The position numbers and the translations under genes are program-made. Of a DNA stretch of 29,541 nucleotides, positions 1 through 28,030 are shown in pieces (position 1 is the stretch's first letter; every line of letters starts with the position of its first letter). The notes under the pieces were generated by a model. It saw only the letters and a program-made list of their open reading frames with translations, was not told the origin of the DNA and did not search any database. This DNA is from Cytauxzoon felis. Its lineage: Eukaryota; Apicomplexa; Aconoidasida; Piroplasmida; Theileriidae. The DNA lies in assembly GCA_020283715.1 (NCBI GenBank), contig JAIQCW010000038.1, positions 1-29,541 on the forward strand, given 5' to 3'.

Positions 1-80
1 AGTGAATTGGAAGAGGGCTCCACGCCGAGTGGAACAGTGGTTGTAACCTCAGGTGGGTTGGATTGGACCTCAGGTTGAGG
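1..80. mobile_element. Foldback element E1, partial, inside a coding exon
   Basis: This is the right end of an element cut by the window start. It contains the shared blocks for the GVEPSSN and PPEVTTTVPLG peptides and ends in GGATTGGACCTCAGGTTGAGG (60-80). It is read in frame in the overlapping minus-strand gene, in the same frame used by the coding copies E3 and E11. Confidence 0.75.
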
Positions 81-990
81 ATCTTCATTTAATTGTGTGT
101 TATTTATGATATCATTGATAGATTTATCATCTAGTAGGCATTTGACATTACCATTATCATCCTTGTAGTAGAAATTTTCTATATTTGTACAGAGTGCGAT
201 TTTATGTTTACATTTATAAGTATCTGCCATTGTATTTACTGGTAAATTCTTAAATACACCATACTTTCTCCATAATTCGGGTGTAATAAACTCATCTAGT
301 GGTATACCTGTGTCACGCATTTTAAATGCAATTTGTCTTAAACGCCAAAATAATTGTTTCAATAATCTATTGTAGCGCATCTGCTCACGTAAACGCCAAT
401 ATGTTTGTAAACGTTTCAATGTATACTTTCTATCAATAAAGTTCTTATTCTCTAATGGTTTATTTACAATGCGATCAAAATATGTAACCAAATCTGAAGT
501 CACATCACACATCTATAAAAAATTTACATCAATATATGAAATTATACTTCATTAAACTTACATGTTCCTTTTCTATCCTTCTTAATTCTTCAATTTCATT
601 AAGTAATGCCGCTTTAAAATCATTGTCTGTATTAAATATCTTCTCCAGCTCTTCAGGTGATGTATCATCTTTCATAAGCTTAATAAGCTTTGCGATATAA
701 CCATGACGTAATAAATTAATCGTTGGTTCCACAGGTATAACGGTATATTCTGGAGGTGAACCAAAATGATCTTGTACATTACCATAATATAGTGTAGGTG
801 ATGGATATATAGCAGAAGGTCTTGTCTTCTTAGGTCTATTCCTAGAAAATTTTCTAGCACCTTTTAATTGATTCCTTTTAGCAAACAATGAATCAATTCT
901 TACATTCTCTACTATAATATTATTAACAATAAAACCATCTACAATACTTAATATACATATTATATAAACGGTGAAAAACACCCTAAACAT
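1..990 (-). CDS. Unknown secreted or organelle-targeted protein, 3' end missing
   Basis: I do not recognise this protein. Two exons are supported, 562-990 and 1-512 (minus strand), joined across a 49 bp GT..AG intron (513-561) that falls between codons. The ATG at 990 begins a hydrophobic leader (MFRVFFTVYIICILSIVDGF) that looks like a signal peptide. A Lys/Arg-rich stretch follows (about residues 35-60), so a bipartite apicoplast-type leader is possible; this is inference. The middle is rich in Arg, Tyr, Trp and Leu (for example TYWRLREQMRYNRLLKQLFW), as in RNA- or ribosome-associated proteins, but no named domain is visible. The last residues before the window edge (PQPEVQSNPPEVTTTVPLGV) come from a foldback element read in frame, so the C-terminal part of the protein carries repeat-derived sequence. 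The reading frame is still open at base 1. Confidence 0.7.
513..561 (-). other. Short intron, 49 bp
   Basis: On the minus strand the donor is CAT|GTAAGT and the acceptor is TTTTATAG|ATG. The intron lies between whole codons. It is typical of the small, element-free introns in this window, and it fixes how the first gene continues past its in-frame stop near 529. Confidence 0.8.
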
Positions 991-1084
991 TGAAATTACT
1001 CACATTATATACATGTAAAAAATTATTAAAAAAATATTATCATCTCATAAAAAGACATCACCATCACATACTATACACACCATT

Positions 1085-1363
1085 CCACTTCCACCCGAGG
1101 TTGTCTTGCAGATAGCTTCCTATATTTAGTTGTCCCTCCGCTTCCCTGAGATCAGCTACGGGTATTCCACTTGAGGTCCATTAACTATATCATGTTCTTC
1201 CGGGTAGATTTTCTGTTCTTAGGGGTTGAACATCTTCGTTCTTCCGGGTTAACATCGCCACGATCTCCGGGAGTGGCTTTACTCTTTAGAGATAGGTAAT
1301 TAGAAGAGGCACCACGCCTAGTGGGATCAATGGTTGTAACCTCGGTGGAACGGCGAGTGGAAG
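1085..1363. mobile_element. Foldback element E2, intergenic
   Basis: This copy fills most of the 452 bp gap (991-1442) between the stop of the 581-residue gene and the start of the first gene. Its left side has CCACCCGAGGTTGTCTTGCA and the CTTCCCTGAGATCAGCTACG block. The middle has the TTCTTCCGGGT and CTGTTCTTAGGGGTTGA modules. The right side has GCCACGATCTCCGGGAGTGG and ends in GTAACCTCGGTGGA. The right flank (1376-1435) carries a CTTCGTTCGTCTCA motif that recurs, inverted, beside element E13 at 22405-22440. A 60-codon minus-strand reading frame here (1185-1367) is just the element's open frame. Confidence 0.8.
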
Positions 1364-1442
1364 ACACATCGTGTAGACTTCACCTCACTCATACTTCGTT
1401 CGTCTCAGTCATTACATTCCTTCGAGTAATATATGTTATGAA

Positions 1443-3185
1443 TTAGATGAAATGGTGTTCGACATTGGTATAGAATTGGTATGCTTTATTGATGGTTGTC
1501 ATATTATTATGAATTTCATCTAATGATAGATTGATTTTATGATTATGTAATAGATTATCGAATTTATTAATAAATAATTGAAGATTATCAAGTTTGATAT
1601 TAATATAATGTTTAAATAATTTATGAGATTCTAATAATAATAATTGTTGTAATTTAATATAATTTTGTTTTTTAAGATTATATTCATCTTGTAATTTTTG
1701 TAATTTTAATTTGCGATTTTCTAATGTTCTTTTTAATTTTGGTATTATAGAATTAAATATTTCAATATTTTTATCATTAATAAAAAATTCACGATTATTA
1801 ATAGCAATTGATTGATCATTTGTTAAATTATTATTAATAAATGGTAATATATAATTTATATTCTTATCAATACCATATTTTTTCTTATTATCAATATTAT
1901 AATTCATATTAGCATTCTCTATCAATTTCTGAAAATCTGTCTTTATTAATCGCCTTATACTACCCATATCATCCACAGATGAACCACAATCAGATGCAGC
2001 ATAACCACTCATTGAATTCATCTCTATATCATCCTCATCAATCTCTTGTCTAGATTCCAATCCACTCGAGGTTACATTCCTGCCGTCAGCTTCTCCACCT
2101 GAGATCTTTCCACTAGCCGTGGCGGCCTCTCTATTTAGTTGTCCCTTCGCTTCCCTGAGATCAGCTGCGGGTTCCACTTGAGGTCCAGTACTATTATTCA
2201 CTCCACCATGTCTTCCCACTGCCGTGATGGCTTCTCTATTTACTTCCCCTCGACTCCCATGGATCGTCTCGGAATCTTCGCCACGATCTCCGGGAGTGGC
2301 TCTACCGTTTACGGGGAGATAATTGGAAGAAGGCTCCACGCCTAGTGGAACGGTGGTGGTAACCTCAGGTGGAGGATTGGATATTGATTGTATATGTGTA
2401 TAATCATTTGGAATGATATTTCTTCTGATTGATAGATTGGCTAAGGATGCGATAGATGGTGGTATATTGAGATAATTATCCAGGAGGAGATTTTTTTTGA
2501 AAATATTGGTATTTTTTTCATCTTTTTTATGTACAGATGTATATTCATGTGGTTGTCGATATGTTGACAATACAGTTTCTTCAGTGAAGTCTATACCACC
2601 CATTATGAATGCTTTACGATTATCTAATTCGATATTGATATTATTCCTTAGTAATTCATTAGAATATGCTTTTAACATATCATTACTATAAGATTCATAA
2701 ACATCTTTAAATGATAATGGTATAACAAGTACATCACAATGACAAAGATAAGTCTTGAATACATTAATTAATGAACCTATACCATCATAATCAAATAATT
2801 TTTTAAGCCATTTTGATTGATTTAATTTTGATATTACTACATTACGTTGAATACCTTTCATTTGTAATGTAGCTATTAACATTTCTAATAATTCATTTAA
2901 TTTTTTATATACACGACGTCTTAATGGTTTTATTATACTATGTGGATGTAATGCAAATAATACAACTTCATCTGAACCTAATGGTTTAACATTAGGTTGT
3001 ATAGTACGAACTATAGATCCTTCTTCATTTCTTAAATTCAATGGTCTTGGTATAGAAAAATATTCTCTAGGTGTAGTTGTAACACGAGGAGTACCCATTA
3101 TACGTGATGAACTCGGTATACGAGATGCACTAGCCATATTTGATGGTACAATACGAATCTGAGGACGAGGTGTTGTTTCCATCAT
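1443..3185 (-). CDS. Unknown 580-residue protein with in-frame element and C-terminal coiled coil
   Basis: I do not recognise a family. The first ATG in frame is at 3185; an upstream TTG at 3191 is unlikely as a start. Residues 1-60 are basic and rich in Ser, Thr, Pro and Arg. About 70-260 looks globular, with the hydrophobic segment SDEVVLFALHPHSIIKPLRR and two Cys in TYLCHCDVL. About 270-375 is a Pro/Gly/Glu-rich segment translated from foldback element E3. About 440-580 is Asn/Lys/Leu-rich with predicted helix and likely coiled coil (KRTLENRKLKLQKLQDEY). No signal peptide or membrane segment is seen, so a cytoplasmic or nuclear location is inferred. The single-exon model requires the element to be translated; removing it as an intron at its own AG/GT sites would break the frame. 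Confidence 0.7.
   Translation of the reverse strand: MMETTPRPQIRIVPSNMASASRIPSSSRIMGTPRVTTTPREYFSIPRPLNLRNEEGSIVRTIQPNVKPLGSDEVVLFALHPHSIIKPLRRRVYKKLNELLEMLIATLQMKGIQRNVVISKLNQSKWLKKLFDYDGIGSLINVFKTYLCHCDVLVIPLSFKDVYESYSNDMLKAYSNELLRNNINIELDNRKAFIMGGIDFTEETVLSTYRQPHEYTSVHKKDEKNTNIFKKNLLLDNYLNIPPSIASLANLSIRRNIIPNDYTHIQSISNPPPEVTTTVPLGVEPSSNYLPVNGRATPGDRGEDSETIHGSRGEVNREAITAVGRHGGVNNSTGPQVEPAADLREAKGQLNREAATASGKISGGEADGRNVTSSGLESRQEIDEDDIEMNSMSGYAASDCGSSVDDMGSIRRLIKTDFQKLIENANMNYNIDNKKKYGIDKNINYILPFINNNLTNDQSIAINNREFFINDKNIEIFNSIIPKLKRTLENRKLKLQKLQDEYNLKKQNYIKLQQLLLLESHKLFKHYINIKLDNLQLFINKFDNLLHNHKINLSLDEIHNNMTTINKAYQFYTNVEHHFI
2058..2375. mobile_element. Foldback element E3, inside a coding exon
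   Basis: The ends are AATCCACTCGAGGTTAC on the left and GTAACCTCAGGTGGAGGATT on the right, an imperfect inverted repeat. Inside are the blocks shared with other copies: CCTGCCGTCAGC, CTTCCCTGAGATCAGCT, GCCACGATCTCCGGGAGTGG and CCACGCCTAGTGGAAC. On the minus strand it is open for about 105 codons and encodes PPEVTTTVPLGVEPSSN, ATPGDRG and EPAADLREAKGQLNREA. The left 120 bases of the plus strand have about 33 C and 9 G, the right 120 about 7 C and 34 G (hand count). Confidence 0.85.
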
Positions 3186-3746
3186 CTTCAAATGGTATTA
3201 TAAAGATGAATCTACAAAGCTAACAACTAAAAATTACAGTACTTTGATCCTACACATATCAATTCACCGTTAGATCTCAGTTATACTGGGATTTTCGTTA
3301 CGTTCAAGGTAATACCTCAAGATAATAAAGCCTATCGCAATAAAAATAAGTGAAAGGTTGAAGGAATAAAAGAGCATTTTAAAGCAAAATATCAAATTTA
3401 TACCTGAAAAATTTTCAATTTTTTCCAAAAAATATCCACCTTGAACTCCAATGAAAAAAATTAACCTCAGTTTGCGTGTGTATCCTTGATCTTACCCCTG
3501 GACAACAAAATATTAATTATGTTGTACTTTATTTCACTACCTTTATATTACCTTAGATTAAATACAGTTCTTACTCCTGTATAATAAAATAATAATTACG
3601 TTCTTCCGGGTTGAAGTCGAGAATTTACATCAATAGACATACCTCAGATGGTACGAGTCAATGTACTGAGGTGTAACTATAGTAGATGATACCTACTACC
3701 ATCAATAGTAGTAAAATATAAAATTTAAATTAAATTAACATTAAAG
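3186..3746. other. Intergenic region with degraded element fragments
   Basis: No gene is seen. The region lies between the start of the 581-residue gene and the stop of the Cwf18 gene, both on the minus strand. It is AT-rich. Two similar stretches, ending AATTATGTTG (about 3496-3523) and AATTACGTTC (about 3571-3600), look like a decayed direct repeat. A CGTTCTTCCGGGTTGAA block at 3600-3616 and ACCTCAG/CTGAGGT pieces at 3642-3681 look like remnants of the foldback family. The promoter of the 581-residue gene presumably lies here, but no motif stands out. Confidence 0.5.
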
Positions 3747-4160: not shown

Positions 4161-4162
4161 TA
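4160..4162 (-). other. Stop/start overlap TAATG between two minus-strand genes
   Basis: The FNPA-like last exon, read from the acceptor AATATAG|TAC at 4271-4272, ends in TAA at 4162-4160. The A at 4160 is also the first base of the Cwf18 ATG. The frame is open for 36 codons before the stop, which supports the exon. If right, the two transcripts overlap. Confidence 0.55.
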
Positions 4163-7100
4163 AATATCAATCACCATAGGACTCAATGATACTTCTAATA
4201 ATGATAAACCCATACTCGTACTACCCAACTCCATATACCCTACCCTCTCCAATGATATTATACCATAGTACTATATTATTATAAAAATTATACTCGATTA
4301 ATATTTTATTTATTTATTATGAATATAAATTTATATAATCCATTCCACTCGAAGTCCAATCCAACTCTTCTTCCACTCGCCTCCACCTGAGGTCGTCGTC
4401 TTGCAGACGGCCTTCTTTATTTACTTCCCCTCGGATTCCCGTAGATCATCCTCGGTATTATGTTAACCCGGAAGAGCGAAGATATTTAACCCCTAAGAAC
4501 AGGAAATCTACCCGGAGGAACAGACACCATCTTCGCCACGATCTCCGGGAGTGGCTCTACTCTTTAGAGATAGATAATTGGAAGAGGGCTCCACGCCTAG
4601 TGGGAAGACTTCAGATGGAAAAGCTGACGGCAGGATTGAACCCCAGGTGGAGTGATATTTATGATAATTATGTATAAACATACGGTGAGTGTTTGTCCTT
4701 TGGATAGGTATTCATCCTATATGAATGTTATATGTAGGGGTTGTTATCTTACATTGAGTACATTATAATTATTGATTGTTAATTTGGTATTATAGATATC
4801 ATTACAGAATGTACCGACTTTGATTTTGATATGGAATTTATTATTTGATGGTGCATCTATAGTCCATTTATTATCATATAATAATAATCCTTGTGTATTA
4901 TTACATTTTGATACATGTGCATGATGTTCCCATCCATAATATATACCATGATGATTAGATTTTATTAGACCTGCATCTATAATTGAATTATTTGAACAAT
5001 TTCCATCCTGACAGAATGATATTTTAATATCTTTTAATTGTTCTTCAACTTTATAATTATTACAAGTTATACCATATAATGTAAATATACCACCTGTTGT
5101 ATGTTTTATATCTTCTAATTCTTCTACTGATAATATTTCTATCCTAACTTTATTAACCATACGATATACATCAAATTCATATCTTAATTGATCATTCAAT
5201 TCAAATATCTCATTTGTACCATCAGGAAAACTAAATGATACAGATGTAGCCCTTAATGAACCACGAGGTTTAAAATGAAAATAACGTAATTCAACCATAT
5301 AATCAAAATCACGAGATATAAATTCACCAACCGTATGACCATTAGATGTCACCCAACCAGTCCTATCATCACCTATTATACCAAAACCCTCATCACAACC
5401 AGAATATTCTATAGATTATATATATATATCAACTTGAAAATCAATCCAACTCTCCTTTCCACTCGAGGTTCTACCTGAGGTTACGTTCCTGCCGTCAGCT
5501 CTTTTAATTACTTCCCCCTCCGCTTCCCTGAGATCAGCTACGGGTTCCACTTGAGGTCCATTAACAAGATTTCGTTCTTCCGGGTTGACATTTACTGTTC
5601 CTCCGGGTAGAATTCCTGTTCTTAGGGGTTGAACATATACGTTCTTCCGGGTATACATTATACCGAGGATGATCTACGGGAATCCAAGGGGAAGTAAATA
5701 AAGGAGCTGACGGCAGGACGAAGAGAGGTTGGATTGGACATCAGGTGGAGAAGATATTGATTAATAATTATGGACAAACCATTGAGTGAGGATGAGGATA
5801 CGCATTGTTGTTTATTGAGTTTGAGTATATTGACATCACCTTTACAAAGTCCATTATATATAGCGGGTGTGATGAACATAAAGTATGATGTATCTATAGG
5901 TACTGTAACATTAACAATTCCTTTTTTATATCTTGAAGTATATAATGTAAATTCTATTTGAGTTGATGCATATTCTTGCTAAGAGAAATTTTTAATAAAC
6001 AAATGACTCAAACTTACACAATAATTCCCTATACCATAAATCGATACTAAATCAAATGTATTCTCAAATGGTACATTATCTTTATTTACCTATATGATTA
6101 TCGTATTAAAATAAACTATACTATATATACAACATTATAACCTCTACCGAAGGTTATATAACCTTTCTACCTGAGGTCCAATCCTACTCTCATTTCCACT
6201 CGCCGTGGCGGCCTCTTCTATTTACTTCCCCTCGGATTCCCGTAGATCATCCTCGGTATAATGTCTACCCGGAAGATCGAAGATGTTCAACCCCTAAGAA
6301 CAGGATAATCTACCCGGAGGAACAGACATCCACCTCTGCCACGATCTCTGGGAGTGGCTATACCCTTTAGGGATAGGTAAATAGAAGAGCTCCATGCAAT
6401 GGCAAATAGAGTAGGAGTGTGACCTCAGGTGGAGTGATATTTATGATAATTATGTCTAGACATACTGGTATGGATTTGCTAGAGGTTGGTAGTGCGATAT
6501 AGATATATGAATCATTAGAGACTGAGAATGTGATATTATTTTCGATAGGTTTACTGATAGTTCTGATTAATTTTGATCCGATGAATTTATTTGGTATATC
6601 AGCAATGATAAAATTTGAGGTATCATTGAATGCTTGTGCACCATTTTCTAATAATGCTCTATAATATAAAATATAATTATATATAATATAAAAGATACAA
6701 TGTATAATATTGTCCTTTAAGACCACTAATTTTTAATGTTGTATATTCTGTTGAACTTTTATAAAAATATTCTGGACTTATAACTTCTTCATTTATAGTA
6801 TTAGATGACCAACTTAATATAATTTTAGCTATATTAGAATTATAATATTTTAATATTTTTTGATGTGAATATTCAATAACTATAGGATAATGTTTACCAC
6901 CAATTAAATATATAGGTTGTGATTTAAGATATAAATTCATAGTTTGTCTACCATTTAATGGTAATGTATTAATTGAATTATAATTACCATCAAATAATAA
7001 ATCATCATAACCATTTGATATTATAATTTCATTATCTATAAATAATCTTATATTACAATCAGATTTTATATAAAATATATAATTATCTGTTGATGGTATT

Positions 7101-8689
7101 TTAATATATCCTTCTATCCTTAATGAAAATGATTCATGTAATATACCATCTATAGGTATAAAATCTTCCCATATCATATTTATATTTGAATGATCTATAA
7201 AACCAATTGCTGGACCACGAAAATATGGATTATTAAAATAACTACCACGTAAACCATCATAATTATCCTAAATAATTATTTATTTATAATATATTATAAC
7301 ATACAAATGCATCATAACCTCTTATTATAGAACAATTCTTACGATTATTTAATGAAATATTCCTAGTCACTTCTACTTCATCTATTAATGATCTTCTCTT
7401 CTCCTTCAATATTGATACAGATGACAAATTCGCAACTAATTGCTCTATAGCTCTCTCTATACCCCTTATCATCGTTTCCATAACATTCAAATCATTAATA
7501 TAATGTGATTCATCTCTACCGCAGACTTCTTCATACTTCGCCAATACATTGTCCAAACGCCTAATAATAATAATCATATATATTATAATACAATTATAAC
7601 ATCATATCTAACATATAGAATTCTACATTCATCTTACATATGAAGTTACATTCCTACCCTTCTTCCACTCGCCGTGGAGGCCTCCTTATTTAGTTGTCCC
7701 TTCGCTTCCCTGAGATCAGCTACGGGTTCCACTTGAGGTTATAATCTAATCTCAGCGAGATAAGGATAAAGTGACGAAAACCATGTTTGGACGGATATCT
7801 CAATGAATATAAATTGGAATCAAATGAGGATGAGTAAATTCAATACAATCATCAAATTCCTTTTCAATGAAGTAGTGAGATCGAACATTCATCCAATAAT
7901 CATTCCACAATCTTCAGTATTTTCCCCAGAAATTCAAGATTTCCTTCAAATTTTGGAGATAAAATGAAGTTAGTGAAATTAGTGAATATGACCTCAAGTG
8001 GACTACCCGTAGCTGATCTCAGGGAAGCGGAGGGGGAAGTAAATAGAAGAGCTGTCTGCAAGACGACCTACGGTGGATGTAACCTCAGGTGGAGGATATT
8101 TCTGTTATAAATTCATTTGACAAACCTTTCTTCTCGAGCTAGGGACTTTATGGCTTCTTTTAGCTCAATGCTACGTAGTTGTGCAAGAGCCCTAAATTAA
8201 TATATAATGACATGTTTGTTGTCAAATCTCAATGAATTGAATGGAATTCTTCTCAACTTACGTCGATTTGTCTCGTAGAATATCATAGTCGATGATGCCG
8301 GTGCAAAAGTCCCAGTCTCGGATACCGGTACCAATTAGTTGTACCTCTACATAACACCATTCACGGCCAACAGTACCATCTGGTGCTTCAGTAGTGGTAC
8401 AATCTGTGAATTTATTACCATTCCTTACAAATGCAGCTGCACATAACTGTCCATTAACAGTCTTACGATGTCGTTGACGATACTCCGTTAATTTCTACAA
8501 ATAAATATTAAACTAATATACATATATACAAACTTGCAATTCTGAGTGATCATAATCACCACTAGTTGGTATGGATACATCACGTGGTAATATAGGCTCT
8601 TTAGGTGTAGTGATGTCTAATGGTAATGAATAAATACATATTACACATGTTATATATAAATAGAAAAATAAAAAATTATTATTATACAT
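4160..8689 (-). CDS. FNPA-like (CCp/LAP family) secreted adhesion protein, FN2 + PA14 + discoidin-like domains
   Basis: I reconstructed ten exons with consistent phases: 8534-8689, 8262-8494, 8126-8191, 7305-7560, 6699-7267, 6466-6658, 6018-6089, 5780-5978, 4753-5408, 4160-4270. They give about 836 residues. A signal peptide (residues 1-20) is followed by a fibronectin type II-like domain (about 68-125) with four Cys in GQLCAAAF, FTDC, GREWCY and WDFC. A charged helix follows (about 155-235), then a PA14 domain (about 245-400; WEDFIPIDG, YIFYIKSDCNIRLFIDNE). After linkers comes a discoidin/ApicA-like part (about 590-690; GWVTSNGHTVGEFISRDF). FN2 plus PA14 without LCCL is the architecture of FNPA (LAP5), one of the apicomplexan gamete-surface LCCL/lectin adhesive-like complex proteins. 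Four of nine introns are 371-565 bp and carry elements. The domain calls are firm; the last exon is inferred from splice sites and an open frame only. Confidence 0.8.
4343..4652. mobile_element. Foldback element E4, in an FNPA-like intron
   Basis: It lies in the 482 bp intron 4271-4752. Left end: CCACTCGAAGTCCAATCC; right end: CCCCAGGTGGAGTG. Internal modules are GTCTTGCAGACGGCC, TACCCGGAGGAACAG, CCTAAGAACAGG, GCCACGATCTCCGGGAGTGG and AGCTGACGGCAGG. The left 120 bases of the plus strand have about 26 C and 5 G, the right 120 about 10 C and 24 G. About 40 bp of the right flank is nearly identical to the right flank of E6. Confidence 0.85.
5440..5750. mobile_element. Foldback element E5, in an FNPA-like intron
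   Basis: It lies in the 371 bp intron 5409-5779. The left part has AATCCAACTCTCCTTTCCAC and two nested CGAGGTT/TGAGGTTAC ends followed by CCTGCCGTCAGCTC. The right part has GAGCTGACGGCAGGACG and GGTTGGATTGGACATCAGG. The middle holds TTCTTCCGGGT, CTCCGGGTAGAATTCCTG and CTTAGGGGTTGAACAT. The nested left end suggests one copy inserted into or recombined with another. An 80-codon open frame (5416-5658, minus) is the element's own stop-free frame, not a gene. Confidence 0.85.
6166..6434. mobile_element. Foldback element E6, in an FNPA-like intron
   Basis: It lies in the 376 bp intron 6090-6465. Left end: CTACCTGAGGTCCAATCC followed by TACTCTCATTTCCACTCGCC. Right end: GAGTAGGAGTGTGACCTCAG plus GTGGAG. 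It has the same internal modules as E4. The plus strand changes from about 21 C / 7 G in 120 bases on the left to about 8 C / 31 G on the right, the clearest skew switch in the window. Confidence 0.85.
7640..8094. mobile_element. Foldback element E7, long form with a core, in an FNPA-like intron
   Basis: It lies in the 565 bp intron 7561-8125. The left half (7640-7745) runs from GAAGTTACATTCCTACCC to CTACGGGTTCCACTTGAGG. The right half (7988-8094) runs from CCTCAAGTGGACTACCCGTA to GTAACCTCAGGTGGAGG. Between them is a core of about 240 bp that is not palindromic. The reverse complement of this core is found in element E10 (about 12950-13185), sharing for example CCCCAGAAATTCA and AATCATTCCACAATCTTCA. 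This may be the fuller form of the family, from which shorter copies lost the core. Confidence 0.8.
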
Positions 8690-8807: not shown

Positions 8808-9714
8808 TCAAATAGATAAACCAAAATTCATCTCGAAATTAATATGTGATGTTAACTATATTGAATTATCATAATTATATCCATACATTTCAACACTTAC
8901 CAATTTGAACTCATCAAATGATATCCTACCATCACCGTCAACATCACCCAGCTGTATTGTACGATCCACCAACTGCTGTATCTATAGAATTAATATAAAA
9001 TCAAACTATTAGAGATCCACTAGAGGTCCAATCCACCTCTTCATCTACTGCCTCATCTTCGCCCTGCCGTCAGCTCTTCCAATTACCTCCCAGTAAACGG
9101 TAATGCCACTCCCAGAGATCGTGGCGGAAGTAAGGATAAAATCTCAAGTGTACTACCCGTAGCTGATCTCAGAGAAGCGGAGGGGGATGTAAATAGAAGA
9201 GCTCTCTGCAAGAGGAATAATGGCGGTAATGTACTTCAACTGGATAAGGAAGCGTCGATTATAAACTTACTTGAACTTCATTGAGATTATTTCCTACCAA
9301 TAATTTGAGTGACTTGAATAAATCGGCGTTGGAAATGTATCCATCTTTGTTAATATCGTAAATATCAAATGCGAATTTCGTCTTCTCGATTTCGTCTACA
9401 GATTCAGTTAGTCTTGCTAGGCCTGATAACAATTCTATAAATGACACTTCTCCATCTGAATTTTTGTCCAAGACGTCCAACAGTCGTTGTACTAATGGAT
9501 TCTGATAAAGCGTTATGAAATCGATAATAAAATAACATACATTTTGTAACGTTGCGATATTTAGCAATTGCCTCAATTTAAGGGTATCTGTATTATCTGT
9601 ATCCAACTGTTTAAACCTTTGATATAACCTTTTAACATCATCTTCATTAAAATTAGCTGCCTGTATTAAGGCATATTGATCATTCAAGTCCATACGATCA
9701 CATGTATTTCCCAT
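8808..9714 (-). CDS. CNB: Calcineurin subunit B (EF-hand regulatory subunit)
   Basis: Four exons, 9541-9714, 9271-9501, 8901-8981 and 8808-8855, give 177 residues, close to the usual 170. The N-terminus MGNTC has the Gly2 context for N-myristoylation seen in the family. EF loops: 38-49 (DTDNTDTLKLRQ, with poor ligands at the end), 70-81 (DKNSDGEVSFIE), 107-118 (DINKDGYISNAD) and 148-159 (DVDGDGRISFDE). The NPLVQRLLDVLD segment after the first intron is typical of calcineurin B. It regulates the calcineurin A phosphatase; in apicomplexans this acts in calcium-dependent host-cell attachment and invasion. Introns are 39, 289 (with element E8) and 45 bp. The last exon (LTSHINFEMNFGLSI) is inferred from splice sites and frame. 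A 62 bp tandem copy of the start region lies just upstream. Confidence 0.9.
9016..9246. mobile_element. Foldback element E8, in the calcineurin B intron
   Basis: It lies in the 289 bp intron 8982-9270. Left end: TCCACTAGAGGTCCAATCCA, then GCCCTGCCGTCAGCTCTTCC. Right side: GTACTACCCGTAGCTGATCT, GAAGAGCTCTCTGCAAGAGG and a decayed end ACTTCAACTGGA. The ends are more diverged than in E6 or E9, so it is probably older. Confidence 0.75.
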
Positions 9715-9817: not shown

Positions 9818-10243
9818 CTAATAGATGAGCAACCCAAATAATAATATTATAAAACTGAATTATAACCACCTTAATATATATAAAATTAGTATACAAATTT
9901 CAAACTAGGATATTACCATCTACATCATCTTTAGAGAAACTTCATATGTATCGCGACACCCAATAAATGCCTGTGTATAAGGGTACATAGACATAGTAAT
10001 TATAAAGTAGTAGTATTTATATGATGGACTGGTAGTTTTAAAATATAAATATATGTTTAAATGTCTATAAATTAGACATAGGTTTCTATTTCAGTGGGTA
10101 GAAGTATATTAATTTTTTATGGCTGTGTGATGCATAGTAGTCTTGGAGACTTTGCTATATCAATGAGTAAATTATATAAATCGCATTTGTTAAATTAAGA
10201 AAAAAGCATTTTGTTGTATATAAAGTTAATGTAATTCTTGATA
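9715..10243. promoter_or_regulatory. Shared divergent upstream region of calcineurin B and sortilin
   Basis: About 530 bp separates the two divergent starts, so it should hold both promoters. Apart from the tandem duplication at 9699-9817 it is AT-rich and low in complexity. I see no recognisable promoter motif, and no foldback element. Confidence 0.45.
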
Positions 10244-16950: not shown

Positions 16951-19900
16951 ATGTGTAGTATTGCTGGTAAATTATTGAGTATATTTTTGATATATTTGAT
17001 TTGTGTGGATTACGCAAGGCATGGCGTGTTTTGTACTAGGGGTGTTAATCATGATGGTACGACAGGTGGTATTGTTAGGGGTTTGAAGGAAGCACCTGGA
17101 AATTTTATCAGAGATGCCACATATACTGCTAAGAAGGTCTATAATGGAGCTGAATTTGCGAAGAATGCAGTGATATCTACAGGCGATTATATGGGTGACC
17201 TAAAGAGTCATTATGATGTAATGAAGAGGAAGAATGAAAGATTGAAGGAGGATTACTACGCTGATAAGAAGCAGAGGAGGATGAATAGGGATAAATATCA
17301 TCGTAATAATAGTGATAACTTTGGTGATTGGCAAGCGCCAACTACTCCCAGTCATGGATATGACAATTTTGGATTTGAGAGTGACTCATCTTCTTCTTCC
17401 TCTTCCTCCTCTTCATCATCATCGTCTGATAGTGATGACGAGGGTGAAGGTGGATCTGATAAGAGGAAAAAGAAGAGGAAGAACTGGAAGTTTTGGAAGA
17501 ATAATAAGAAGCGTACCTATCCATTTGGTGGTGGCAGTGGAAGTGAAGGGGGTGAAGATAGTGAGGATGAGGATGGAACAGTGCGTAGCAATTTGGAAGC
17601 ATTAGTTGGTCATAATACAAAGGCACTTGAGACTATGATTGGTTATGATAAATTCCTTAAACCTTTCATTGCAAATTTAAAGCCTGAATTCAAGGCATTA
17701 CTTAAAGGTCAAAGAGCCGAATATCTACAAACTTATAAAGTTATTACACAAAGAATGGTTGCAATAACTAACCCCATATTATTTACCACCACAAATTTCG
17801 AGGATTCAACATCCAATGAAGTTTTTTCCCACGACCATGAAATATATGGAACTAAAACCAAAGGTGATTCATTAGTACAAATTTCGGCCGATAATGATCC
17901 CAACACTAACCCCGTAGCTGATCACGGGGAAGCGAAGGGAGAAGTAAATAAAGAAGGCACCACGCCTAGTGGAAGCGATGCACAACCTGAGGTTACAACA
18001 AATGTTCCACTCGCCTCCACTGTAGGTCTTGTAGACAGCTCTCCACCCGAGGTTAGTCCTGCCGTCAGCTCTTCCAATTCACTCCCCGTAGACGGTGATG
18101 CCACTCCCGGAGATCGTGGCGGTGAAGAAGGTGGGGATGGAAGTGATATTAAGGATGTAACCTCAGGTGGAGAACCCGTAGCTGATCTCAGGGAAGCGGA
18201 GGGACAACTAAATAGAGAAGGCACCACGCCTAGTGGAAAGGAGAGTCAGACTGTAACCTCAGGTGGAGATGTAACCTCGAGTGTTGAAGGTAATGATGTA
18301 TCATCGACTGCAGAATCCACAACTCCAGTGGGTACTGAATCTGGACAAGATGATGTAGAGGTTAATACTTCGGGTGAAGATGATTATGGTGATAATAATC
18401 CCCACGATTTAGATAAACCCGACGACGACGACGAGGACGTGGAATTTGAAGACGATGGGTCTGAATCATTTTTATCATTTGAGGGTGCTCCACCATCTGA
18501 CAGTGATAGTGATTCGTCTGATGATGAGAAGGCGGCAAAGAGTAAACCTAGACGTGTAAAGTTGATGGATTGGCGTAAGAATCCTAAATTGTATAGTTTA
18601 CAGGTATTAAAGACATTATATTTATTGACATCTGATGTAATGACTCATGAGACGAAAAAAAGATTATCAAATATTGCTAATGCTGTGGGGTTTAATATTA
18701 TAAATGAAGTTCCTACAGATAAGGAAGAGATTGAAAATCAGGCGGATATGCCTAGAAATAAAAGATCACCATTACCTATAGAAATTGGTGGGGATATTTT
18801 TTGGGCATCAGGTGATAATCCATTTATACTTGGACATTTATGTGTATTAATGTTGGGTTATGCTGATTATCAATCATATTTTACTACATCTTCTACAAGA
18901 CCATTTTATTCATGGCTAGATTTAATAAGTTCTGGTACATCTAGTGGTATACATAAACTTGATGCAATGTGTAGTATTAAAAGAGGACCTAAATATAAAA
19001 GAGGATCTAATGGTGCCATACAAAAGAATCATGCAGTAAAGAGAATTATTAATAAAGAATTGTCAAGTGATGTACAATTTTTATGCCAAATTCTAGAAGT
19101 ACTCGTTAGGGCTATTGGAATATCCATAGATACACTAGGTGAATTATTAAACCATCAAGGTGCTACATATGAACCAAACGTAGGACCAATCACTAATGGA
19201 AGAAGAATTCAAGCCAAACTTTGCTCCAATACAAATGACTCTACAATCGTAGTAAGATGCGAATTCAATAAATCATTACTCAATAAACAAAGCACATACC
19301 ATGGAATTCCAGATGGCGAAATCAATGATCTCAAATATAAATACCATGAAGCATTCGATCTATTCCTCACATTAAGTAAGTTTATACACCATTCCACTCG
19401 AGGTCCAACCGACGACCGTTAGGTCTAGGTACAATCCAACTCTACTTCCACCTGAGGTCGTCTTGCAGACAGCTTCCTATATTTAGTTGTCCCTCCGCTT
19501 CCCTGAGATCAGCTACGGGTTCTCCACTTGAGGTCTCCACCTGAGGTCTCCACCTGAGGTCCAATTACTACCTTCACGTTCTTCCGGTTGACACCTTTTG
19601 TTCCTCCGGGTAGAATTCCTGTTCTTATGGGTTAACATATTATCGTTCTTCCGGGTTGAAAATTATCAAAAAATTTTCCTCGGTCCCCTTACTCTCAATT
19701 ATCCAAACGAAGAACTTGATAATACAATAACAACATCTACTCCGAAGTCAAACCTCAAATATAATACTGGACATCGAGTGGAAAACCCGTAGCTGATCTC
19801 AGGGAAGCGTAGGGGGAAGTAATTAAAAGAGCTCCATGCAATGGCAACGAGAGTAGGATTGGACATCAGGTAGAATACATTCATTACATATATATTTATA

Positions 19901-22381
19901 GGTGATGCGAAGGTATCTGATGTGACTCCACCATCTTGGTATACTATAATATCGGATCCTGGTCGTTATAGGTCATTATTTGAGATGACATTGATGTGGG
20001 ATCCTCGTTTATTTTCAAGTACATCTAATAAGAATACATGGCAATCTAGATATTCTAATTGTAAGTTGATTTGATTAATTTGTATATAAATTTTAGTTGA
20101 GAAGCATTATATGGGTGTTAAATTGGACACTCAGGTAGTTCCTGGTTATAATAGTCGTGAATATTATAAGAGGACGATATCATTGAATTATAAGGAGGGT
20201 GGACATGAATCTAATGCATTTTATAAATATTATATATATATGGCATCATCTGGTATTAAGGATTGGATTGAGAGGAATATGATTGCTATGCAGGAAGCAT
20301 ATGAATATTCTCCATCAGTATTATTGGGTGGTAATTTATCTAATAGATTTAGAGATTTTTATACATCTTCTAGTTATGGTTTATCATCATTATTTTTATA
20401 TCATACATTATCACAATATAATTCTGCTGAATCATATAATAATGAATTGAGTTTATTAAGGAAATCATCATTATTTTCTAGAATAGTGGATTCATCTAAT
20501 TTATTTGTACCTAATAAATTGAAGAAGACTGTTAATTGGTTATTAAAAGGTGGTTTATCTAAAAAATTTATGAAAGAGAAAACGAAATTATCATTAAAAC
20601 AATTATTATCTAAAGATATTCTTAGAGATGCTTTAACTTCTATTAAATTTGTTACTCATTCTATGGCGAATATACAAATTAATCAGAATGCTCATTTATG
20701 GGGTAGTGCATTTTATAGTAAAGGTGATGATATATTTACAAAAGGTGGTTGTGTTGGTAAGATTGATAAGATAATACGTGAATGGAGTGATTCAGGTTAT
20801 AGTTCTAGTATATCAAAGAAATTGAAACAAGGTATAGAATTAGATGAGAATGATTTAAAGGTTGCAGATTTTCAACATATACATAATACAGAGAGTATAA
20901 AATGGGATAAATATTTAAATATGGAAATATTGAATGCATATAATAAATTTTTAGATTTACCATCAATAAAGAATTTAGAAGGTAAAGGTAATTTATTATA
21001 TGAGATAGTAAAAGATTCTAGAGATAATTTAGAACAAAATTTAGAGAATACAATATTTTTTGGTAGAATAATACAACCAGGTCATATAAATAATAAATTG
21101 AAAAAATTCTTTAGAGATGTAACGTCTATAGGTAGATTATTATTAAATAAATCTAGAAATCCAGTAGATCATGCTGTATGGTTTGGTATAAATATAGATG
21201 TAAAAAAAATATTAAGAGTAATAGATGAATTACATAAATTACAGAAACAATTAAATATAAATGAATCATGGAATTTACAAGGTGGTTTTATAGATTTATT
21301 AGATGATATATTAAATATATATAGTAATAATAATATTAGAGAACCACCAAATATAATATCAAATTATGGTATGCCTACTATATCAAATTATTATGGTAGA
21401 ATGTCTAAAGATGAAAGATTAATTGAATTACAACAATCTATGTGTAATAAACATTGTTCATCTATATGGAAATGTATATTATCATTTACATTAACAACAT
21501 TACGTAATCCTGGTTCTATTAAATCATATGAAAAAAATTTATCTTCTACTACATCATTAAATGATATTATATCACCTTCATTTATTAATAATTATAAATT
21601 TATATTAAAAGGTGATGCTATGTTACATATGTATGATACTATGTTACCTAAAAAAATGAAAAATGAATTAAAATCTATTAAATATGGTAAAGCATTTTAT
21701 TTTTCTAATATATTAAAATTATCTTCTATATTATTAAAAGAATTAGGTTATATATATACTTCTACTACATTAAAAATACAAGCACCATATTTTGGTAATT
21801 TTATAGCTGATTGGGGTAAAAAAAGAGAAGATTCTAAAATGAAATCTATATTATCTACTATTGCATTAGGTACTATGGCTACATATACATTATTAGAATG
21901 TATGGATATTGCACAACATGCACATGATGTTGGTATACCACCAACTGAAACTTGTTTCTATCTTATTAAACCACCATCTTATCATTGTATTACTAATCAT
22001 GTCACCACCATTGCATTGAAGTCTTCAGAAATTGCAATCAGAGATGTATTTTCATCCACCATCCTCGCATTAGTTGGACCATATTTTATATTACCAATGG
22101 GTACCATGGCCGCATGGAATATACTCAAACATCAATTCAAAATATTACATCGATTAGATATCGCCCTATCAGCCACCATGAATAAATTGTGGAATAAAAT
22201 CAAATCCGGTAATACCATCAATACCATCACCAATTGGTTCAAAAATAGAAGAGAATATCGCAATAAAATCATCAACATTGCCCAAAATAATAAACAACAA
22301 CAGAAACATAATGAAGATAACAACGATGAAGATGTTATCATCAATGATAACAACGCACTCTCTTATACCTACTTTGACTAA
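16951..22381 (+). CDS. RON2: Rhoptry neck protein 2 (RON2), AMA1 receptor
   Basis: Three exons, 16951-19375, 19902-20060 and 20097-22381, give 1622 residues. A signal peptide (about 1-29) precedes a basic region, a poly-Ser tract (about 146-158) and acidic tracts. Residues about 320-445 come from foldback element E11. The rest of exon 1 and exon 3 is the conserved helical RON2 body. Near the C-terminus two Cys (about 1481 and 1492; TCFYLIKPPSYHC) enclose the loop known in this family to bind AMA1. Flanking hydrophobic helices (about ILSTIALGTMATYTL and ILALVGPYFILPMG) match its membrane anchoring. RON2 is injected into the host membrane with RON4/5/8-type partners and forms the moving junction with parasite AMA1. 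The Asn/Asp-rich tail is low complexity. Intron 1 (526 bp) carries E12; intron 2 is 36 bp. Confidence 0.9.
17909..18285. mobile_element. Foldback element E11, mosaic, inside the RON2 coding exon
   Basis: It is built of right-half, left-half and right-half blocks in tandem: CCCGTAGCTGATCACGGGGA, ACAACCTGAGGTTACAAC, CTCCACCCGAGGTTAGTCCT, CTGCCGTCAGCTCTTCCAAT, GGAGATCGTGGCGG, GTAACCTCAGGTGGAGAACC and CCACGCCTAGTGGAAAGG. About 125 codons are open in the RON2 frame, giving peptides such as PAVSSSNSLPVDG, ATPGDRGG and EPVADLREAEGQLNREGTT. The plus strand has about 27 C / 14 G on the left and 17 C / 34 G on the right (120 bases each; the right count begins 195 bp beyond the element). Confidence 0.85.
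19391..19873. mobile_element. Foldback element E12, in RON2 intron 1
   Basis: It lies in intron 19376-19901. Left part: CCACTCGAGGTCCAACC, a second start CCACCTGAGGTCGTCTTGCA, then three stacked TCCAC(C/T)TGAGGTC units (19525-19562). Middle: TTCTTCCGG and CCTCCGGGTAGAATTCCTG modules. Right part: CCCGTAGCTGATCTCAGGGA and GGATTGGACATCAGGTAGA. The right half has TAG in the frame that coding copies keep open (GCG TAG where the others have GCG GAG), as expected of an intronic copy without coding constraint. Confidence 0.85.
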
Positions 22382-22457
22382 TCTCATGAAATTATATCCA
22401 TTTATAAATGAAGTTAGTGAGACGAACGAAGTGAGTGACGAAGGAGCTTGTGACTGA

Positions 22458-22566
22458 GGTGTCTTCCACCTGAGGTTACATTCCTGCCGTCAGCTCTCCT
22501 ATTTACTTCCCCTTCCAGCTCCCGTAGATCGCTTCCAGGTTCCACCTGAGGTCTCCACCCGAGGTT
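22458..22566. mobile_element. Foldback half-element E13
   Basis: Left-half type: CCACCTGAGGTTACATTCCT, CTGCCGTCAGCTC, CTTCCCCTTCCAGCTCCCGT and CCACCTGAGGTCTCCACCCG. It is most similar to the left half of E9. Its left flank (22405-22440) holds the inverse of the motif beside E2 and resembles the end of the E7 core (GAAGTTAGTGA). Confidence 0.75.
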
Positions 22567-22650
22567 AATCAACTAATAATATACTAAATAATTGAATTAA
22601 ATACAATAATCATCTTCATTTAATCATTTACAATCTTTATATAATATTCC

Positions 22651-22820
22651 AATAATTTTATGAAATGTAATTATTTATATATATCTATTGCTATCTTATA
22701 TAAGTAGTATACTTCACATCATGTTAGTAGTTATATAGTATATATATTATAATTATTATTTATATTAATACTTATATATCTTCATATAACTATACTTCAT
22801 CCTTCAATTGTATTGATATT
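22651..22820. repeat. AT-rich dispersed repeat, copy R1
   Basis: About 165 bp is shared with copies at 24845-25000 and 28105-28270. Shared blocks include TGAAATGTAATTATTTATAT, ATCTTATATAAGTAGTATAC, TAGTATATATATTATA and CCTTCAATTGTATT. Both R1 and R3 lie less than 90 bp to the right of a left-half foldback element. Confidence 0.75.
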
Positions 22821-22914
22821 AAATTATAAATTACTGGAAGGATATGTAATTGATATAATGTATTTGGAATATGGGGTACGCCACATAATTATGGTGTTAT
22901 ACGGAGTATAGTCA

Positions 22915-23025
22915 TTGGACCTCAAGTGGAACCCGTAGCTGATCTCAGGGAAGCGGAGGGGGAACTAAATGAATGAGCCACCAGGCGAGTGGAACGATAG
23001 TAGAAGGGACATCAGGTGGAATGGA
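22915..23025. mobile_element. Foldback half-element E14
   Basis: Right-half type: GGACCTCAAGTGGAACCCGT, CTGATCTCAGGGAAGCGGAG, CCACCAGGCGAGTGGAAC and ending GGGACATCAGGTGGA. It may be the partner of E13, with about 350 bp between them. On the plus strand the shared frame is closed by TGA after CTAAATGAA. Confidence 0.75.
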
Positions 23026-23145
23026 ACTTATCATCTATGGATGTGTATATTGACTATTCAAATTACGATGAAGATTAAAATATTAACTTCAATAAGAGTT
23101 AAACTGAGTTGAAATTATCCTGTACTAACCTATAGGTTGTTATAA

Positions 23146-23934: not shown

Positions 23935-24709
23935 TATTAATAATATACAGTACTAGTTATATTATGTGTAGATGAAATGACCACCAATACAATTAAAACA
24001 TTAAAGTTACGACAAGAAACAATGATAAATAGATAGGTAAAGACATGAAAAGACATACACATGGGGAAATGTATGTGTTTATGCATGAAGGAGGATTCTG
24101 ATGTGATGGATATATTTACACATTACGGGTGCTAACTGAAATTTATAGCTACAATTACACTTATGACATCTTATTTTACATTATAATACATTTAATTAAT
24201 ATTTATAATCGTTATATGATTCACTCTTCCGAGATTGTTGAGTTATATACTGACTGATCAACAACGGTAACATATCCACACACCAATAGATGGATATAAT
24301 ATTATAAAGTTCCAGTAATCATTAGGAATTCAACTATTTATCAATGTAATTAATTTATAATTGTCATTTTATCATCTATTATCATTAATGATCTCATTGT
24401 CCAATGCTGAGAACTGTCTAATGGATTATGGGTGATCATCAATGTCTTTTAATATGATACATTACCTTTCAACCTTTATCATCATCTTATAATAGACTTG
24501 TAGTAAATAATTTTATGAGTAGAATAAATGATACTTTATCCAATTAAAATATCATTTGTATGAAGTTACTATAAAAGACACATATTTAGATATTCATTTC
24601 ATTTATCTTTAAAAGTCCATCATTAACTTTATACTTCCTCTAGATTCCATTCCAGTACCTTAATATATTAAATCATACATGACATATATAATGACTGTCT
24701 CAATAATTT

Positions 24710-24727
24710 GCACCATAATTATGGTGC
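24710..24727. repeat. Perfect 18 bp palindrome
   Basis: GCACCATAATTATGGTGC equals its own reverse complement. Related but decayed versions occur at about 22874-22897 (CCACATAATTATGGTG core) and about 27857-27872 (GCACAATTATAGTG). Each is associated with a copy of the AT-rich repeat, so it may be a binding site or simply part of the duplicated segment. Confidence 0.7.
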
Positions 24728-24844
24728 TACGAAGTTTATTTGTAATTATTCCTATAATGAGTGGTATCTTGATGAATTTTATAAAGTATAATGAAGTATA
24801 TCATCACTTACAATTGAATTACAAGTTTGTATTAATAATATAGA

Positions 24845-25210
24845 TGTTAGTTAAGTAAGTATTATTATAAGTATAATATACCAACTATATAATATCAATT
24901 CATGTTATACTATTATAGTATATATATTATAATAATTATTTATATTAATACATGTATATCATCATACAACTATACATCACCCTTCAATTGTATTAATATA
25001 ATAGTATATATTATAGATATAGACAAATCATCACTAGACAATAATATTATAGTGTAAATGGTGTTTTTTATCCACATAACCTGACATTTATAGTGTTTAT
25101 TATTGTCATTATTGTATTGAAATTTGTATACATCATCACCTTACTACGTTATCATACAATTGTATCATAAAAGTATATTACACAAATGTGATAATCTTCA
25201 TGACATATAT
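24845..25210. repeat. AT-rich dispersed repeat R2 with an extended downstream match
   Basis: 24845-25000 matches R1 and R3 (TAGTATATATATTATA, TATATTAATACATGTATATC, CCTTCAATTGTATT). The match to the R3 side continues to about 25210 through AATGGTGTTT..TATCC, ATTATTGTATTGAAATTTGT and CTTCATGA. At 28453 the matching position is the start of the cysteine-rich gene; here no such gene follows. Confidence 0.65.
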
Positions 25211-26568
25211 GTTTGTGCAGATAATTATTTCTAGAGGGACAATAGACGATAATTGAACGTTATATATATGAAATAGATATAAGGACATGTCTGTAAGAAT
25301 CCAGGACAAGTATTATACTTGAATATATATGATGGACATATGTAGATAACGAAGATGATATTCACATTAACACAAAACTATAATTATCATATCTCTAATT
25401 TAATTTAATTTCTTACATTTAATTAGATATTATTAAATTATGTGCAATATTAACATTGTACTTCTCATATAACACTCTCTACACATTTATAACTCGGGTT
25501 AATTACTAAATACAAATGTTATATGGCTGACTAAAGTAAGTAAATTTCTTCAATGAATCAGGACATATAATTGTGAGGATCAATTTTAAATAAATTAATA
25601 GTATAGAATTTTATCGTGTTTGTATAGTAAACGCCTCATAATTTTTTTTACTAATGTTAATTTCACTGGAAATATAAAAGATGACCTCATATATATGGAA
25701 TATATATATCGAAAATTCGATAATGAATATAGCAATCGAATAAATATATATACTTGTACAAAATAATTAAACACCAAATAATTTCATTTATATTATTAGA
25801 TTAAATCTGAATTTATGATTTTATTTACATGGGATTGATGAATGGAGGAGATGTATATTTTATATTACATATTTATACTCCACATATAATATAGTATATA
25901 TAAAGAATACATGGGCTATAAATGAATGATGATAAATTTATATAGATGAAAAAAGAATGGGTTTTCATGGAAATTTAAGATGTATTATAAATATACATGT
26001 GTCCATGTATATGAAGATTGCATATTATCATGTATTTTTATTGAAATATATATATAAGAGTATAATAATTGTCTTGGAACGTATACTTTCAATAATGCAT
26101 GCAGTAAATGTTGATTTAATACAATTCACCTCTATATGATACATATTCATGCCATCAAATATCAGGACAAACGAAATCACTAATGATTATAGAATCTAAA
26201 TACAAGATTAAAGAGTATCATTACTCTAGTTATCTGAGACACAGCCAAGCATTGTGGCAATGTGTAATGAGGGTCAAGTATTGGTCAACAGATACTACAC
26301 ACATTAAGAATGGAATATGGATATATGCAAGGAAGGAATTAATACATAATGAAATAAGACCTTAATTATGAAGTTATTATACAATATTAAGCTATTGGAC
26401 ATTCATAAATACATAAATCATGCCTATAGACAATTAGCCCCATTGTTTGTGTTTCATGGGGGAAATTATTCAATATCGGATTGAATCTTTTTATATCTTC
26501 TTTTTTTCAATACAGCCATTCCATACCTCTTTTAAATTTTAATCATTTATTTCAATATTCATACAACG

Positions 26569-27321
26569 ATGGTTAGTTTATTCTATACACTTTATAATTT
26601 AACATCACATAAATCCCTACAGACTAATTTTCAATTGACAGAAGCTAATTTCCGTAGATTCTATGATTTTATACCGGGTCTGCCATTTTGTGATATTATG
26701 CCATTATTGAAGGACAAGGATGCCTATCACAATACTATAGACCTATTGGCTGAGAAGGTATTGGAATCGTTCCCAGGTGGTGTTGATTATGTAGCTTGTA
26801 TTGAATTAAGAGGTGTACCTTTTGGACCAACTTTGGCTTATAAATTGAATGCTGGTTTAGTTATATTGAGAAAAAAGGGTAAATTACCTGGACCCACATA
26901 TACAAAAACTTTTATTCATGATTATGCTGAAGATGCTTTACAGATACAAGTAGATGCTATCAAACCTGGTTCCAGTGTTATTATCATAGATGATCTAATA
27001 TCGACTGGTGGTACTTTAAAGGCCGCATGTGAATTAGTATGTACAATGAATGCCAATTTACTTGGTTGTTTTACTATCGTAGAGAGACCTGCTACCCATG
27101 GTAGAGAGAATTTTGAACGTGATTTACCCGATGTACCATTATTTTCCCTAGTTAAATTATCCTTTTATGGTAGAAAAACACTCTATGATCCTGCAGATGC
27201 TGATAAGGAGAAGAAAGAGTTCGAGGAAGTCCTTAAAAGCCTTTGGAAGGATGAAAGTAGAGCTAAATCCGCATCAAAAGGTTTATTAGGTATAAGAAAT
27301 GACGTTTTTGTGAAACAGTAA
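26569..27321 (+). CDS. Adenine phosphoribosyltransferase-type enzyme
   Basis: A single exon encodes 250 residues; the ATG is at 26569. The type I phosphoribosyltransferase PRPP-binding motif is VIIIDDLISTGGT (about 137-149). Upstream, the ELRGVPFGPTLAYKL and LVILRKKGKLPGPTYT segments match the APRT pattern (RG-x-x-FGP and the Arg/Lys-x-x-GKLPG loop). The expected reaction is adenine + PRPP to AMP + pyrophosphate in the cytosol, a purine-salvage step fitting parasites that cannot make purines. APRT proteins are usually about 170-190 residues; this one has about 20 extra at the N-terminus and a charged Lys/Glu-rich tail (about 205-250). It is isolated, without an operon-like context. Assignment to APRT rather than another PRTase is likely but not proven. 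Confidence 0.85.
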   Translation: MVSLFYTLYNLTSHKSLQTNFQLTEANFRRFYDFIPGLPFCDIMPLLKDKDAYHNTIDLLAEKVLESFPGGVDYVACIELRGVPFGPTLAYKLNAGLVILRKKGKLPGPTYTKTFIHDYAEDALQIQVDAIKPGSSVIIIDDLISTGGTLKAACELVCTMNANLLGCFTIVERPATHGRENFERDLPDVPLFSLVKLSFYGRKTLYDPADADKEKKEFEEVLKSLWKDESRAKSASKGLLGIRNDVFVKQ

Positions 27322-27904
27322 AAGTATTTAAATATTTGTAAGATTTATTAAATGTATAAAGTATTGTTATTTGTTACATTTATCAATGGAATTGGTCACT
27401 GTACCCATTAGATTGTACAATGTCAATCCATCTGACATTTATATTAACATACATGTTCAACTGCGTTATTTGTAGTATAATAATTTTATTTTAATTTTTT
27501 TTGTTATGAAATTCATTACACATTTTTATATGTAGTGGAGTTGAGTGTCTAGTTCACCACACGTATCTCGAGGTTTGTGACTCTTGTTATCCAGGGTGAA
27601 ATTATATATACCCATGAATTATATTTACACATTATATGATGTTGGTTAGTTTATATACTTGAAATGGAATCATTTCATTAATTCATCGCACGTCATTCTG
27701 TAAATGTATGGAAAGTTCTCAGAGGACAATACATTATCGCATCAAGTAGACACTCATTACATGACGTGTAGATATATTCTAGACTATATTTACAGATGGT
27801 TGGTACATTATATCTCAATGTATTCATCACATGAAATACCACAGTGTCTAATTTGCACAATTATAGTGTCACTAAGTTGATTTGTAATTATTCCTATAAC
27901 GAGT

Positions 27905-28030
27905 AGTCCACCGAAGGTATACAACATCGTCTTCCACTCTACTCGAGCTTCCTTCGTCTTGCAGACAGCTCTTTTATTTAGCTCCCCCTACGCCTACCAT
28001 TAGTCGGCTGCGGGTAATGCACTTGAGGTC
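27905..28030. mobile_element. Foldback half-element E15
   Basis: Left-half type, decayed: CTTCCACTCTACTCGAGC, TTCGTCTTGCAGACAGCTCT, TATTTAGCTCCCCCTACGC and GGTAATGCACTTGAGGTC. It interrupts a segment that is continuous in the related copy at 24600-25000, which gives an empty-site comparison for an insertion. Confidence 0.7.

Follow-up and report, generated by a model that had tools for sequence, protein, structure and literature searches.

A high-copy family of modular palindromic repeats in the nuclear genome of Cytauxzoon felis, predicted to be read in frame where it lies in exons

What are the GC-rich foldback repeats that recur along a single contig of Cytauxzoon felis, and how did they spread? 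The stretch in question, here called the window, is the whole 29,541-bp contig JAIQCW010000038.1 of an 8.62-Mb genome in 181 contigs (a 2013 assembly of the species is described with 361 contigs, 9.1 Mb and 31.8% GC; PMC3748084). A sequence-only reading had described about 15 copies there and leaned towards a non-autonomous foldback or miniature inverted-repeat transposable element (MITE). We find that GC-rich, hairpin-prone repeats built of short words fill an estimated one eighth of the C. felis genome. Our preferred reading, to which we give a probability of about 0.6, is that they form a high-copy, non-autonomous, modular palindromic nuclear repeat family that is tolerated in introns either way round, is translated in exons and has spread by recombination. 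According to gene models, a broadly similar peptide of about 100 residues has probably been added in this manner to many unrelated proteins, a published vaccine antigen among them.

Elements were collected by iterated BLAST, seeded with the places named in the sequence-only reading, from a 269.5-kb sample comprising the window, 140 kb of contig C9, 60 kb of contig C31 and 20 kb each of contigs C8 and C4. The family was present at all 15 places and proved more extensive than had been stated: the sample holds 215 elements (median length 241 nt, median GC 0.50), which make up 18.6% of its sequence, and GC outside the first-round element set is 0.26-0.30. Further copies occur throughout the genome. 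The word TCCACCTGAGGTCCAATCC, at up to two mismatches, gave 1298 + 1272 = 2570 matches and a second word gave 2861, with reversed-pattern controls at 0/0 and 0, respectively; in the window, at up to three mismatches, TCCACCTGAGGTCCAATCC matched 15 times versus 0.00 expected (100 shuffles). Contigs C9, C31, C8 and C4 were picked for their many word matches, so that the two words are about 1.5-1.6 times as dense there as in the genome (0.445 versus 0.298 and 0.538 versus 0.332 per kb), and genome totals were therefore scaled by word counts. The two counts yield 4,242-4,605 elements, or 11.5-12.5% of the genome. If the exonic share of the sample (33/215, see below) holds throughout, we infer some 650-700 exonic copies genome-wide. 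No account of this family was found in the open-access literature searched.

Each element is a polar core between inverted arms built from interchangeable, mostly palindromic short words. The GDR word (CACTCCCGGAGATCGTGGC) stands at one side of the core and an inverted LREA or GATC word at the other; the list of the 40 commonest core patterns contains no pattern in which both sides carry GDR alone. Outward from the core come ATT (ATTTACTTCCCC), then one interchangeable word (CTGCCGTCAGCTC, CTTGCAGACAGCTC, CTCGCCGTGGCGGCC, CTAGGCGTGGTGCC or ATTGCATGGAGCTC) and then T1 (CCACCTGAGGT), the last two recurring in variable number per arm. Judged by eye, most arm and core words are small imperfect palindromes. 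The sequence-only reading did not see this fixed grammar of words, the polarity of the core or the rule for orientation and frame described below, and two of its structural claims did not survive. First, the ends are not fixed: the long end form TCCACCTGAGGT, taken for a shared terminus, also lies internally, and T1 is found internally as well as terminally, with other words often outside, leaving no fixed terminal inverted repeat. Second, the arms are not mutual reverse complements in the sense of being copies of one another. The core-adjacent interchangeable word is identical in both arms of 25/130 elements, whereas 29.7 would be expected by chance, and we suggest that the two arms of an element were assembled independently.

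Might the elements instead be functional RNA or regulatory hairpins, kept for their paired arms in splicing, transcript processing or insulation? Folding z-scores below -3 in 15/20 intronic and 12/14 intergenic elements sampled (15 shuffles each) speak for such a role, as does a spacing more even than random (coefficient of variation for midpoints 0.44-0.81 by contig). However, arm words agree no more than by chance, single arms exist, exonic copies fold less well (8/18 below -3) and the window has no Rfam match. We consider a hairpin function very unlikely. A tRNA scan of the window was also negative. The claim that each copy can form a long hairpin was too strong: seven of the 15 listed copies reached z < -4 and one z -2.2 (60 dinucleotide shuffles each), but seven were not below -2, among them three single arms and the copy cut by the contig start.

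The placement of elements was read from models made by a simple gene finder trained on the sampled sequence, with element bases given zero coding score and splice sites permitted inside an element only within 15 nt of its ends. The finder recovers the sortilin gene of the window, where the Vps10 profile is matched at 2-372 before and 377-445 after an element-bearing intron. By these models 145 elements are intronic, 37 intergenic and 33 exonic, and the description of a family dispersed through introns, exons and intergenic DNA is thereby borne out. The median modelled intron measures 45.5 nt without an element versus 435 nt with one, and an element is present in 121/142 introns longer than 150 nt and in 121/267 of all.

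Introners are another kind of repeat that populates protist introns, and the C. felis repeats resemble them in this respect. Under this explanation the element ends would supply the splice sites, each insertion creating an intron; the end word does include GAG/GT, its inverse CAG/GT, and the share of modelled introns with an element (121/267) also fits. Unlike introners, the C. felis repeats have modelled splice sites outside the element (from donor to element, median 51 nt and 5th percentile 21 nt; from element to acceptor, median 59.5 nt and 5th percentile 28 nt), although this is a partial test because the model barred sites deeper than 15 nt. The sortilin domain moreover continues across a splice site outside the element, and the copies that lie in exons are open and keep the frame. 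The position of the splice sites sets the family apart from introners, and such an origin is hardly credible.

Orientation distinguishes exonic from intronic copies. The ratio of sense to antisense GDR is 31:1 in exons versus 45:47 in introns, and that of LREA is 1:28 versus 41:41. Of the elements with both words, 23/23 exonic, 28/55 intronic and 2/11 intergenic ones have a core that keeps the frame and contains no stop. An exon call requires an open frame, which makes these orientation and core-frame counts partly circular and weakens the case for our reading, and the frame test was therefore redone on elements chosen by their flanks alone (both 90-nt flanks coding-like, on one strand). Of these, 19/20 keep the frame and 18/20 are stop-free, with GDR 17 sense to 1 antisense; at stricter flank thresholds, 5/5 and 1/1 keep the frame. 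Among intronic copies, full openness is as frequent in sense (14/45) as in antisense (13/45), so that it looks inherited, not maintained. The predicted exonic product is about 100 residues long and of the type PPEV..LADSSSNYLSLKGxATPGDRGG..EPAADLREAEGEVNREADGRNVTSGG.

We suggest that introns would tolerate either orientation, the splice sites being outside the element and the element able to fold upon itself, and that in exons survival would be limited to in-frame copies in the single orientation that is open. Exonic copies would then be read into protein, each adding about 100 residues, with Rickettsia palindromic elements as a parallel. Alternatively, exonic copies could be untranslated, as unrecognised introns or retained-intron segments. 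Introns are where elements are commonest (145/215), and an insert in a PARN protein (see below) has non-element flanks resembling element-bearing introns. Yet splice signals around exonic copies are weak (median sum 2.9, versus 6.8 at random coding positions and 10.5 at intronic copies), orientation is fixed in exons, the frame is kept in 19 of the 20 flank-chosen elements, and cf76, the vaccine antigen taken up below, is published as a single-exon gene (PMC3748084). The coding score shows no dip adjoining exonic elements, and for that reason exonised introns were rejected. Overall, we rate untranslated exonic copies as unlikely.

Host proteins are diverse. The sampled host exons number 25, of which 20 entered a Pfam scan, a CLAG-like exon was treated separately as the 21st and four crossing stretch borders were left out. 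Ten of the 20 had a Pfam match at E <= 0.001: FAINT, Saf4/Yju2, CAF1B/HIR1 propeller, kinesin, RNA_bind (below the curated cut-off), CAF1 nuclease, gamma-tubulin complex, MFS, G-patch and glutamate-cysteine ligase. The CAF1/PARN protein carries its element at residues 226-328, inside an insertion of about 150 residues that is replaced by a short loop in 9/9 aligned relatives (T. equi, B. ovata, B. bigemina, B. ovis, Babesia sp. Xinjiang, B. bovis, B. microti and two further; 13 orthologs were found, and P0128, P0134, P0135 and P0136 were left out of the alignment). At the protein level, the orthologous site of this exonic copy, which lies outside the window, is empty in those relatives. In glutamate-cysteine ligase, residues 215-371 (element at 250-340) face residues 222-252 of the yeast enzyme, relative to which the protein thus carries an insertion. 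One exon on C9 (L011-L012) bears two elements, at 28712-29117 and 30402-30743, which are 97% identical over 315 nt and probably arose by local duplication.

Beyond relatives of the host proteins, the matches listed in protein searches with element peptides were two variants of cf76 (in one search, among the best 7986 candidates). This published C. felis surface antigen matches the genome at 100% over 723 residues, on which ground an assignment of the organism to Babesia, drawn from the sortilin (71% to B. bigemina), was given up for C. felis. The reference gene holds two canonical elements, at about 7073-7355 and 8289-8510 of contig C114, the second within the C-terminal domain that was found highly seroreactive (PMC3748084). 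Serology and vaccine fragments derived from this domain may thus involve a peptide common to many parasite proteins, and antibodies might recognise that peptide. A search of the genome with cf76, limited to 62 scored candidates, listed at least about 35 distinct long open frames (500 aa or more), one of them cf76 itself. The words 'repeat' and 'motif' are absent from the main text of the microarray paper (PMC6310948).

The two deposited cf76 variants (723 and 706 aa) differ at 61 alignment columns, all at residues 119-298: 43 inside element 1 (179-272), 13 before it and 5 after. When the variant peptides of element 1 were sought in the 215 elements, AADLREAEGQLNREGTTPSG was found in 1 and GPQVETSS in 5, and EASPPEVTSS and PAESSSNLLSQLG in none. 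Some variant words thus have no match among the sampled elements, and a donor copy was not identified. In element 2 an interchangeable word followed by T1 occurs twice in tandem (period 33 bp), which is perhaps the 30-bp sequence, present in two copies or one, that is described as the sole C-terminal variation in eleven samples (PMC3748084). A doubtful extension of our reading is that the dispersed copies form a library from which, by segmental gene conversion, words pass from intronic and intergenic copies to exonic ones and diversify surface antigens like cf76 between isolates, with the one recurrent peptide as an immune decoy on hundreds of unrelated proteins.

For the spread itself we propose, more tentatively, that words are swapped among copies via ectopic recombination or gene conversion, which would give mosaic arms, that the same exchange may underlie the cf76 isolate differences, and that the family would have multiplied by copying without a recognisable transposase. 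The main rival is a non-autonomous DNA transposon (MITE or foldback) whose transposase was lost, is divergent or lies outside the assembly, and whose copies were later reshuffled by recombination. Like MITEs and foldback elements (FB, Galileo type), the C. felis elements have inverted arms, inner repeats in the arms, a high copy number in thousands of dispersed copies and no transposase frame of their own, and the empty site in PARN is also in keeping with insertion.

Unlike them, the C. felis elements have unfixed termini, independently built arms and no detected target-site duplications. The longest direct flank match averages 5.44 versus 5.51 in shuffled pairs (214 elements; duplications of 2-4 nt are possible), and in 29 elements with clean ends flanking direct repetition was likewise no greater than in shuffled pairs. 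MULE, DDE_3, DDE_Tnp_4 and rve gave 0 genome matches with controls working (piggyBac, pogo, Helitron and others were not searched), and hAT gave 0 with its control itself silent. A larger autonomous copy was not encountered, though no genome-wide search for one was made. The cited text of a survey of 64 apicomplexan genomes reports no class II elements in these genomes and no transposable elements in C. felis, and states that MITE candidates were dropped as likely false positives (PMC9141347). The earlier assignment to MITE or foldback transposons is thus not sustained, because target-site duplications were not detected and the ends are not fixed. A transposon origin is possible, and recombination or gene conversion between copies is favoured over a lost or unrecognised transposase. 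A retroposon source (short or long interspersed elements) was not found: both RVT_1 matches share a single frame with a telomerase RNA-binding domain (Telomerase_RBD, 1.1e-25) and belong to the telomerase reverse transcriptase gene at G000 C56:73693-74436 (L033), and rve had 0 matches.

Several further results weigh against the preferred reading. The exon models behind the in-frame reading are predicted genes from our own gene finder; the flank test is free of circularity but draws on 20 elements (5 and 1 once the thresholds are tightened). The core is reversed in one of the 33 exonic elements, and at no distance does the coding score beside exonic copies reach that of random exon windows. In PARN, about 35 residues before and about 12 after the element are also extra and are not element sequence. 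The cf76 tract could be an old divergent allele and not the product of word exchange, as 18 of its 61 differences lie outside the element. Finally, the longest exact tract between copies has a median of 51 nt versus 39 nt in a crude simulation, a modest excess that word conservation alone could cause; we therefore rejected such tracts as a demonstration of gene conversion.

Which known system comes closest? Repeats in mosaics of short palindromic units in inverted arrangement are found in bacteria as repetitive extragenic palindromes and bacterial interspersed mosaic elements, which are mainly extragenic; the C. felis family resembles them in this layout and differs in having copies in introns and exons. 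Mitochondrial hairpin-forming repeats are GC-rich and share the capacity to fold, but the C. felis family is nuclear and has a coding orientation rule. By behaviour, the closest analogue is the Rickettsia palindromic elements, of about 150 bp, with ten families and 44 insertions in R. conorii, nearly half of them in open reading frames (PMC10969869). Both are palindromic, dispersed and in frame in unrelated genes, where they are read (here by prediction) as a peptide insert. Unlike those elements, the C. felis copies lie by the thousand in an intron-bearing eukaryotic nuclear genome, are longer and have a mosaic word grammar and a polar core. The mosaic grammar, the eukaryotic setting, the genome share and the orientation and frame rule are what distinguish the family from the known kinds. 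A species reported without transposable elements (in the cited text of PMC9141347) would thus hold a repeat family filling about one eighth of its genome. In-frame palindromic elements would thereby have a counterpart in a eukaryotic nuclear genome, and one compact genome would offer a system for studying how introns grow longer and how proteins cope with repeated insertion.

In the window, the family is represented by the following copies (strand is given for the exonic ones; the others carry none).

1-80: right arm of an element that the contig start truncates
1083-1364: element between the minus-strand gene models 562-990 and 1446-3182
2060-2379, minus strand: exonic element, in frame and open, residues 267-374 of 579 in exon 1446-3182, which has no Pfam match
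4340-4652: element in modelled intron 4271-4752 (minus)
5429-5754: element in modelled intron 5409-5779 (minus)
6163-6436: element in modelled intron 6090-6465 (minus)
7637-8096: element with arms 7637-7754 and 7972-8096 and an AT-rich centre, in modelled intron 7561-8261 (minus)
9016-9244: element in intron 8982-9270 (minus) of an EF-hand gene
11773-12008: element in intron 11738-12062 of the sortilin gene, across which the Vps10 domain continues
12822-13290: element with an AT-rich centre, in modelled intron 12775-13339 of the sortilin gene
17908-18285, plus strand: exonic element, in frame and open, about residues 319-440, in exon 16951-19375 of the CLAG-like gene
19391-19876: element in intron 19376-19901 of the CLAG-like gene
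22458-23027: intergenic pair of arms, 22458-22573 and 22902-23027, around an AT-rich centre
27905-28037: single arm downstream of a phosphoribosyltransferase gene

Some units previously listed as separate or whole copies have changed. The copies at 22458-22566 and 22915-23025 look like two arms of one element with an AT-rich centre between them, the one at 27905-28030 is a single arm and the one at 1-80 is truncated by the contig start. The arm at 27905-28037 was modelled as intronic, but that gene model fuses two genes, and we read the arm as intergenic. The copies at 7640-8094 and 12824-13289 have in common a 222-nt AT-rich centre, in inverted orientation and at 79% identity.

Other features of the window may be noted. 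A lone TTCTTCCGGGTTGA word lies at 3599-3618, outside all annotated elements. An AT-rich repeat of 223 nt occurs in three copies (22606-22828, 24786-25008 and 28063-28285; the latter two at 66% and 83% to the first), of which two adjoin element arms. The CLAG/RhopH1-like gene, in pieces over 16951-22381, holds one exonic and one intronic element; its profile match has E 1.8e-5 in exon 16951-19375 (below the cut-off) and 7.9e-10 in a second exon. Cysteine-rich reading frames lie toward the contig end, at 28432-29541, with 28432-28977 lacking a Pfam match. The sortilin (10241-13659) is 70-71% identical to its counterparts in B. bigemina and B. caballi versus 59-62% for Theileria, so that by identity, without a tree, it is nearer Babesia than Theileria, though Cytauxzoon is classed in Theileriidae.

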